Positions 40,984-42,357 of a stretch of 42,357 bases of DNA are shown piece after piece. The stretch is from Fibrobacter sp. UWR2. GTDB lineage: Bacteria; Fibrobacterota; Fibrobacteria; Fibrobacterales; Fibrobacteraceae. The stretch spans positions 1 through 42,357 of the forward strand of contig NZ_MWQE01000015.1 of NCBI RefSeq assembly GCF_002210285.1, in the 5' to 3' direction. The notes beneath the pieces were generated by a model that saw only the letters and a program-made list of their open reading frames with translations, made no database searches and was not told where the DNA came from. The position numbers and the translations under genes are program-made. Each line of letters starts with the position of its first letter. The first letter of the stretch is position 1.

Positions 40984-41012
40984 TTGACGGGGGCAAAATC
41001 TTATTCTATCTT
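40984..41012 (+). promoter_or_regulatory. Promoter of the metY leader and gene
   Basis: TTGACG (40984-40989), 17-base spacer, TATCTT (41007-41012). The -35 hexamer is identical to that of mccBA. Transcription would start near 41019, leaving a leader of about 240 bases. Confidence 0.8.
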
Positions 41013-41016
41013 AAAA

Positions 41017-41033
41017 CCTACAAGATTGGTAGG
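41017..41033 (+). promoter_or_regulatory. CCTA-N9-TAGG box at the metY start site
   Basis: CCTACAAGATTGGTAGG is an inverted repeat (CCTAC/GTAGG) beginning four bases after the -10 box. It has the same length and ends as the boxes at 28582 and 29675. Its right end, with the next A, gives an AGGA that is 8 bases before the mini-ORF at 41043. Confidence 0.6.
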
Positions 41034-41042
41034 AAAAACAAA

Positions 41043-41060
41043 ATGGTTTGTGATTCCTAA
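41043..41060 (+). CDS. Possible five-residue leader peptide in the metY leader
   Basis: ATG-GTT-TGT-GAT-TCC-TAA encodes MVCDS. AGGA at 41031-41034 lies 8 bases before the ATG. The placement relative to the box is the same as for the mccBA leader peptide. A five-codon ORF can occur by chance; the shared position and the Cys codon are the only support. Confidence 0.4.
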   Translation: MVCDS

Positions 41061-41179
41061 GCATTCGAAGGAGCGCCTATGATAAGTGACTGTCGAATGC
41101 CGAGAGGCATTCTGAGAACGAACTAGCCGCAAGCCTTTTGTCCTTAGGGCTTTGCAGGTTAGAAAAATAAGCCTAAGGA
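41061..41179 (+). promoter_or_regulatory. Mutually exclusive hairpins in the metY leader
   Basis: Hairpin A pairs GCATTCGA (41061-41068) with TCGAATGC (41093-41100) and encloses the Shine-Dalgarno and start of the second leader peptide. Hairpin B pairs GAATGCC (41095-41101) with GGCATTC (41106-41112) around a GAGA loop; it shares bases with A, so both cannot form. Hairpin C pairs TCCTTAGGGCTT (41141-41152) with AAGCCTAAGGA (41169-41179), with one bulge. An alternative stem, CCGCAAGCC (41127-41135) with 41149-41159, excludes C. This is what a switching leader RNA looks like. No known riboswitch core is apparent to me. Confidence 0.65.
41079..41126 (+). CDS. Leader peptide in the metY leader
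   Basis: A 15-codon ORF, MISDCRMPRGILRTN, ending with TAG at 41124-41126. AAGGAG at 41068-41073 lies 5 bases before the ATG, stronger than the Shine-Dalgarno of many genes in this window. The codons for R-M-P-R-G-I make up hairpin B, so translation and RNA folding must interfere with each other. It has one Cys and one internal Met, too few for classical stalling at starved codons; sensing through the nascent peptide or through translation-coupled refolding is as likely. Function is inferred. Confidence 0.7.
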   Translation: MISDCRMPRGILRTN

Positions 41180-41200
41180 TATCTCCAAAACCCAAATAAT

Positions 41201-41249
41201 GCGAGCACGGGTCTCTTTAGACCCGGTTGCCCGCTACAACCTAAAAGGA
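41201..41249 (+). promoter_or_regulatory. Stem before metY and its Shine-Dalgarno
   Basis: CGGGTCT (41208-41214) pairs with AGACCCG (41219-41225), with outer GC and GCG/CGC pairs extending the stem to 41201-41234. No T run follows, so it is not a normal terminator. The metY Shine-Dalgarno lies in CCTAAAAGGA (41240-41249), close to the 3' arm of hairpin C (CCTAAGGA, 41172-41179). The TCCTTAGG at 41141-41148 could therefore pair with either, which would open or close the ribosome site. Confidence 0.5.
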
Positions 41250-41258
41250 ATTTTAACC

Positions 41259-42357
41259 ATGACGACACAGAACAAGCTCCATTTTGAAACTCTTCAGCTC
41301 CATGTTGGCCAGGAACAGGCAGACCCCGCAACCGATTCCCGTGCGGTTCCTATTTACCAGACCACCTCTTACGTTTTCCACAACTCCCAGGATGCTGCAG
41401 ACCGCTTTGCCCTGAAGGCCGGTGGTAATGTTTACGGCCGTATCAACAACTCCACTCAGGGCGTTCTCGAAGAACGTATTGCTGCCCTCGAAGGTGGCGT
41501 TGCCGCTCTCGCCGTCGCCTCTGGTGCCGCTGCCATCACTTACGCCATCACGGCTCTTGCCCGCAGTGGTGACCACGTGGTTGTCCAGCGCACGGTTTAC
41601 GGTGGTACTTTCAACCTGTTGCAGCATACGCTCCGTGACTTCGGTATCGAATCGACCTTCGTCGATACTCACGACCTCAAGAGCGTCGAAGCCGCCGTCA
41701 AGGAAAACACGAAGCTCATCTTTATCGAAACTCTCGGCAACCCGCATTCCGACATTCCGGATATCGACGCTATCGCCGAAATCGCTCACAAGAACAAGAT
41801 TCCTCTGGTCATCGACAACACCTTCGGTACTCCGTACCTGATTCGCCCGATTGAACACGGTGCCGACATCGTGGTGCATTCCGCGACCAAGTTCATCGGC
41901 GGTCACGGCACGACCCTCGGCGGTGTCATCGTGGATAGCGGTAAGTTCGACTGGACCAAGAGCGGCAAGTTCCCGCAGTTCACCGAGAAGAACCCGAGCT
42001 ACGGTTTCCCGTTTGTGGCCGCCGGCGCTGCTGCCTACGCCATCTACGTGCGTACGATTCTCCTCCGTGACGAAGGTGCTGCCATTTCCCCGTTCAACGC
42101 ATTCCTGCTGTTGCAGGGTGTCGAGACGCTTTCGCTCCGCCTCGATCGCCATGTCGAAAACACCAAGAAGGTTCTGGAATTCCTTTCCAAGCACCCGAAG
42201 GTTACCCGCGTGAGCCACCCGAGCTTCGAAAACCATCCGGACCACAAGCTTTACCAGAAGTACTTCCCGAATGGTGGCGGCTCCATCTTTACGTTCGATA
42301 TCAAGGGCGGCCAGGAAGAAGCCTTCAAGTTCATCGATAGCCTCAAGATTTTCAGCT
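41259..42357 (+). CDS. metY: O-acetylhomoserine sulfhydrylase (MetY), 3' end outside window
   Basis: The first 366 residues of a PLP enzyme of the Cys/Met family, open to the window end; the family is about 420-430 long, so only the C-terminal part is missing. It starts [19 protein letters not shown], typical of O-acetylhomoserine aminocarboxypropyltransferases. [26 protein letters not shown], and [20 protein letters not shown] with PLP lysine 211 follow. The insert around residues 225-275 (with YGFPF) marks MetY from MetB/MccB. It makes homocysteine from O-acetylhomoserine and sulfide, feeding both methionine and, through mccBA, cysteine. AAGGA lies 9 bases before the ATG. Confidence 0.93.

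Follow-up and report, generated by a model that had tools for sequence, protein, structure and literature searches.

In attenuators of the trp and his type, a gene of the related pathway is preceded by a short leader ORF that has a ribosome site of its own and codons on which the ribosome is held, together with hairpins that exclude each other. TnaC and other metabolite-sensing arrest peptides carry conserved residues at a fixed place, and arrest falls at the stop codon or close to it. In Arabidopsis, SAM induces nascent-peptide arrest in the MTO1 region of CGS1. Leader-peptide control of methionine synthesis itself has, to our knowledge, not been established, partly since Met codons start every protein. 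Within sulfur amino-acid metabolism, Cys-rich leaders exist in actinobacteria. A cysteine leader ORF, uORFC-8-2, precedes cysS in Rhodobacterales (PMC8632094). SAM riboswitches and T-box leaders act on the methionine pathway through RNA. The leader described here, upstream of metY in Fibrobacter, shares features with each of these. Like the cysteine leaders, it has a short ORF with Cys codons before a gene of sulfur amino-acid metabolism, and its hairpins compete, but those ORFs have tandem Cys codons, whereas in metY leaders Cys is optional and Arg-Met constant. It resembles the CGS1 MTO1 region in concerning a neighbouring methionine-synthesis step and in the product feedback proposed; the Arabidopsis region is, by contrast, eukaryotic, lies within the enzyme's own coding region and has another sequence.

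The window, a stretch of 42,357 nucleotides from Fibrobacter sp. UWR2, ends within metY, a gene 100% identical to metY of the F. succinogenes MAG RUG11683. The leader is more stable than shuffled sequences on folding (z -3.1), and its features are as follows.

40984..41012, + strand: promoter-like element TTGACG-N17-TATCTT, read from the sequence and present in most Fibrobacter relatives
41017..41033, + strand: inverted repeat CCTAC-N7-GTAGG at the predicted transcript start, from sequence comparison
41030..41059, + strand: 5' hairpin with AUGG loop (arms 41030-41042/41047-41059), whose stem survives base changes, for example in L058 and L064
41061..41100, + strand: hairpin A (GCATTCGA/TCGAATGC) around the ribosome site and start of the leader ORF, nearly invariant
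41068..41073, + strand: leader-ORF ribosome-binding site AAGGAG, invariant
41079..41126, + strand: leader peptide ORF MISDCRMPRGILRTN, conserved in its start, frame and stop and in C-R-M-P and G-I-L
41094..41099, + strand: CGA-AUG codon pair (Arg-Met), the core common to the wider family by codon comparison
41095..41112, + strand: hairpin B, GAATGCC-GNRA-GGCATTC, with loop GAGA, GCGA, GAAA or GGAA; excludes hairpin A
41123..41162, + strand: hairpin C, whose 5' arm includes the stop codon of the ORF; three two-sided base-pair changes
41140..41180, + strand: hairpin C' (41140-41152 with 41169-41180), with three two-sided pair changes; excludes C and forms when the stop region is masked
41201..41234, + strand: hairpin D, just 5' of the metY ribosome site, from folding and sequence comparison
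41245..41249, + strand: metY ribosome-binding site AAGGA, conserved
41259..42357, continuing past the window end, + strand: metY, O-acetylhomoserine aminocarboxypropyltransferase (PF01053; TIGR01326, above its cut-off)

The original prediction read two tiny ORFs in this leader. The second, MISDCRMPRGILRTN, lies behind AAGGAG at the coordinates proposed, and we regard it as real because its start, ribosome site, stop and C-R-M-P-x-G-I-L persist: the pattern M-(ISD/STE/SSD)-C-R-M-P-x-G-I-L-K-T-N, with ribosome site and stop, recurs in more than 30 Fibrobacter leaders, and a 6-nt insertion in L064/L142 leaves the ORF in frame. Absence or frameshifting of the ORF in close relatives had been named as the outcome that would count against it; the opposite was seen. 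The first ORF, MVCDS, does occupy an open frame (41043-41060), but relatives carry MVCDSQCIRRSAYEY, MNCYS, MFRF... or a deletion in its place, and the 5' hairpin has its ATG as part of the loop; unconserved and so placed, it was rejected as a component of the device. As in trp and his leaders, then, a conserved short ORF with its ribosome site precedes a pathway gene. The window peptide has 15 residues, with one Cys and one non-initial Met, and neither it nor MTDRMRD, the leader ORF of another family of Fibrobacterales, holds several codons for a regulating amino acid; reading and folding found no Rho-independent terminator in the Fibrobacter leader. Because it has neither a codon run nor a terminator, the Fibrobacter device falls outside the trp/his definition.

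A duplicated metY leader, L177 (G033:C17:115000-115706), carries a deletion of ~54 nt that takes the leader ORF after the start codon together with the first arm of hairpin C. This natural mutant stands at a contig end, and an intact copy is present elsewhere in G033. The metY copy L181 (G028) has no leader, as is the case for several metY paralogues; together with the ORF loss in L177, this indicates that some copies can do without the leader.

Hairpins A (41061-41068/41093-41100) and B (41095-41101/41106-41112), both predicted at the outset, are present and mutually exclusive through shared bases. Hairpin A has no covariation support because it is nearly invariant, with a single break (L111). 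The tetraloop of hairpin B is always GNRA in Fibrobacter leaders, in the four forms listed above, and the residue that it encodes varies between R, K and E, so the fixed peptide residues over hairpin B are only C-R-M-P and G-I. The proposal that the R-M-P-R-G-I codons of hairpin B are under selection for both peptide and RNA thus gains from the constant loop and loses at the residue encoded there.

A second pair of exclusive hairpins, C and C', competes further downstream, and this switch was absent from the first description. That description had TCCTTAGG (41141-41148) pairing either with CCTAAGGA (41172-41179) or with the Shine-Dalgarno region of metY. The former pairing exists as TCCTTA/TAAGGA, but as half of the longer hairpin C'. 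Covariation was assessed in 18 distinct sequences aligned by hand, with 2000 column shuffles; a MAFFT alignment (A1) was left out of the pair counts, as it places L111 off by one base in C'. The suggested covariance check of the leader revealed compensatory changes in both hairpins, with three two-sided base-pair changes each in C and C'. The number of paired cells observed was reached by none of the shuffles for the inner part of C (C-inner), by 3 for C'-b and by 17 for C'-a, the latter being less clear; C-outer was uninformative in this comparison. In fold models, a ribosome mask at CGA-AUG left C mostly unchanged, and one at the stop codon abolished C and formed C' in 33 of 34 orthologues, the exception being L058 (L058/L141), which is without C'. 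Covariation and mask model together predict mutually exclusive hairpins set by ribosome position, as in an attenuator. The accessibility of the metY ribosome site was 0.57, 0.57 and 0.54 for the three ribosome positions in a nested-structure model, and L058 has lost the pairing between TCCTTAGG and the metY Shine-Dalgarno; with modelled accessibility equal, this part of the prediction is unsupported. A further pairing noticed by eye, between the C 3' end and CUACAACCU (5' of the ribosome site), was rejected, being absent in L034 and L122. The claim that translation of the leader sets the RNA fold and thereby metY translation therefore stands for the choice of fold, through conservation, covariation and the ribosome mask, with one real ORF instead of two and C/C' in place of A/B as the covarying switch; it is unsupported for sequestration of the metY site.

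Turning to other metY genes, the Fibrobacter paralogues are preceded by different short ORFs (MRCRMCNQSKGGRA, MKVRMCTLSEARGA, MSCRMCNRTEQSWKSQA and MSCTSEDRMLVQA), which have in common with MTDRMRD, a peptide with no Cys and three residues before R-M, an Arg-Met pair spelled CGA-ATG. Longer peptides precede metY in Clostridia and Treponema (MKNDFLEYIRNNFRCGRMCNARTV..., MRNPFLELLRQNFRFGRMCCSRAV... and MIKMFFKLLRQNFRNGRM, the last with M as its final residue); those of Treponema read ...FEKLVRENFRNG[VR]MC..., with Val or Leu often replacing Arg. At loci selected by metY alone, 30 of the 37 leaders from Fibrobacter and 16 of the 41 from elsewhere have a Shine-Dalgarno-led short ORF with in-frame CGA-ATG, as against 0.2-0.6% in controls (random windows or shuffles). 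The Arg codon before Met is CGA in 82 of 88 leaders; 1.8 would be expected from metY codon usage. The remaining six are apparently chance matches to unrelated ORFs or positions, save one true Treponema member with CGT. Among the leaders of the Clostridia type with N-F-R-x-G-R-M (n=25), the first Arg uses six codons and the second is CGA in 24. With the N, F, R and G codons varying and CGA near-fixed, N, F, R and G are kept at the level of the peptide and CGA at the level of the codon. Related sequences are included in all these counts, which do not represent independent events. The link between Fibrobacter and Clostridia peptides consists of CGA-AUG, position, gene and a few residues, from which common descent is not provable. 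Searches beyond these leaders returned little: 42 pattern matches in a search for second leader copies in the genome of the window itself included none that was judged convincing (12 of them not looked at singly), a Spirochaetota-wide pattern search gave mostly chance-level matches, and a plasmid search with one Clostridia peptide gave no match.

Some members depart from this form. The Faecalibacterium and Collinsella ORFs (L097, L101, L102, L109 and L075) contain two to three Arg-Met pairs, mostly CGA-ATG, and the stop codon of the Faecalibacterium ORFs is often directly preceded by the last such pair or by a lone Met. Negativicutes metY leaders (L104, L106 and L090) encode a peptide, MQRLARLSAWxQSxFVMCR, that resembles ...NFRNGVMCR of Treponema and is possibly a further branch of the family without Arg before Met.

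Several Clostridia members carry an intrinsic terminator, a further likeness to trp and his attenuators: seven leaders by automatic test and an eighth (L093) by a looser one. The codons immediately 3' of CGA-AUG form the start of an antiterminator, most clearly in L096, L093, L105 and L108, and segments from +6 of CGA pair with the 5' half of the terminator at -18.5 to -42 kcal/mol (-31.8 kcal/mol in L105 with the correct terminator, a weaker hairpin being picked otherwise). Compared with shuffled segments, L096 and L093 lie well beyond the range and L102 and L108 at its edge, and the energies of L101, L097, L109 and L105 fall inside it. Masking to +16 or +19, as by a ribosome held on CGA or AUG, strongly cuts the pairing in most, so a held ribosome should permit termination. 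Here the metY leaders differ from trp and his attenuators, since a held ribosome would cover the antiterminator and not free it; many members also have no run of codons for a single amino acid, the core being the CGA-AUG pair.

We propose that the metY leader is a ribosome-operated attenuator in which a pause at CGA-AUG and the C/C' switch set metY output, and consider this likely. The ribosome translating the 15-codon peptide would pause or arrest at the slow CGA-AUG pair, where it would cover hairpins A and B and leave the stop region free for hairpin C; on reaching the stop codon it would cover the 5' arm of C, and the RNA would switch to C'. The C/C' state would then set metY output through translation or Rho-type termination, the Fibrobacter leader being without an intrinsic terminator. 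In other Fibrobacteraceae, Clostridia and Treponema this device would act on metY together with different RNA, and in terminator-bearing Clostridia a ribosome held at CGA-AUG would favour termination. The model builds on the conserved ORF and codon pair, the covariation of C and C' and the complementarity of the antiterminator; from these we infer the pausing, the ligand, the direction and the output step. The constant modelled accessibility of the metY ribosome site across states counts against it. In mechanism, the leader appears closest to leader-peptide attenuation and arrest peptides. If holding favours termination, this suggests an OFF state for the held ribosome, with an abundance of methionine, SAM or cysteine as the signal; for a biosynthetic gene, a stall under product plenty would fit this direction better than starvation.

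One specific form of this attenuator is product-induced arrest of the nascent chain, in which N-F-R-x-G-R-M (D/C-R-M in Fibrobacter) would stall the ribosome when Met, SAM or Cys is abundant and turn metY OFF. The codons for N, F, R and G vary while the amino acids are kept, which points to selection on residues near the putative arrest site, more weakly in Fibrobacter. M is the last codon before UGA in some members (NFRNGRM*), as in stop-codon arrest peptides, and a ribosome held at R-M would have part of the antiterminator strand within its footprint, consistent with holding as OFF. Sequence and genes differ from those of TnaC-type peptides, as does the predicted OFF effect, the arrest itself being a prediction here. 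However, Fibrobacterales ORFs such as MTDRMRD, with three residues before R-M, offer little for ligand binding, and the near-fixed CGA codon implicates decoding besides the peptide, so that we hold this form tentatively, as a serious possibility of less than even weight. A broader reading combines both effects: cross-phylum arrest peptides for methionine or SAM (or cysteine) may stall at CGA-AUG through nascent chain and decoding together, with exchangeable RNA read-outs, namely intrinsic terminators in Clostridia and a terminator-free fold switch in Fibrobacter. We offer this joint reading as conceivable and somewhat doubtful.

Starvation attenuation, in which a shortage of Met-tRNA or Cys-tRNA would make the ribosome wait at AUG or nearby Cys codons and so raise metY expression, is unlikely. 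The invariant Met, the frequent adjacent Cys and the two to three R-M pairs of Faecalibacterium and Collinsella would suit it, as would an AUG slowed by CGA in the P site; CGA proved slow in an assay with a his leader (PMC4046918). In terminator-bearing leaders, however, the held ribosome would cover the antiterminator, which would give termination and hence the wrong direction, and several ORFs have no Cys and a single Met codon. Starvation at Cys codons as the general signal was rejected, as several members lack Cys.

A ligand-binding riboswitch in Fibrobacter on hairpins B, C and C', with the ORF incidental, would account for the GNRA loop of B, the covariation in C and C' and the almost invariant RNA bases beneath the ORF. 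Yet other Fibrobacter metY leaders keep Shine-Dalgarno-led CGA-ATG ORFs and none of this RNA, and Clostridia retain the peptide and not the RNA. The original prediction saw no SAM-riboswitch or T-box core and called for a comparison with Rfam; cmscan gave no match for the window region (E up to 10) or for 12 related loci (E up to 0.5), in agreement with that view, and no Rfam family covers the leader region. Unlike SAM riboswitches and T-box leaders, which equally control the methionine pathway, the metY leader has a conserved ORF and no aptamer or tRNA-binding core. A SAM or other known riboswitch was rejected on the Rfam result, and a ligand-binding RNA built on B, C and C' seems very improbable. 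Weakest of all, and scarcely credible, is that the leader ORF senses nothing and only boosts metY translation by coupling or ribosome recycling: the short spacing from ORF to metY in some Clostridia (22-60 nt) would allow it, but the distance in Fibrobacter is about 130 nt, and the fixed CGA-AUG, the terminators and the fold switching would be left unexplained.

The CGA-AUG family of metY leader peptides is apparently undescribed. NCBIfam and Pfam gave no match for the longer peptides of relatives (the 15-residue window peptide is too short to scan), and a search of open-licence papers gave nothing on the peptide strings or on a metY or methionine leader, though a description in a subscription journal is possible. 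A family of metY leaders in which a rare codon precedes one Met codon almost invariably, spread over bacteria of the gut and rumen, would be a new form of sulfur-amino-acid sensing and a ready test of how CGA tunes ribosome pausing. With it, the way methionine synthesis is controlled could be tested in Faecalibacterium and other common gut bacteria.

The inverted repeat at 41017..41033 is a probable binding site for a repressor of the Rrf2/CymR kind. Repeats of the CCTAC-N7-GTAGG type also occur at the promoters of metY paralogues and of a Fibrobacter AhpD-like gene (L171-L174), and before metY of Treponema and Clostridia; it looks as though an Rrf2/CymR-type sulfur repressor site is common to all these leaders.

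The leader is also found before genes other than metY. The Fibrobacter type (MCSDCRMPEGILKIN) precedes a short-chain dehydrogenase in two species (L175/L176), and Treponema copies precede a family-3 solute-binding protein, an NlpA/MetQ lipoprotein, a Cys/Met PLP enzyme and a GST-domain protein. On a plain reading, these leader-bearing genes, mostly sulfur genes, would form a sulfur-amino-acid regulon. In L175 (533-3201), where operon content was read, genes for a CysK-like PLP enzyme and a LanC-like protein follow the short-chain dehydrogenase, and the three make up one apparent operon of unusual composition. The GST-domain protein behind the Treponema leader L200, of ~406 residues and perhaps a glutathionyl-hydroquinone reductase, is an unexpected regulon member.
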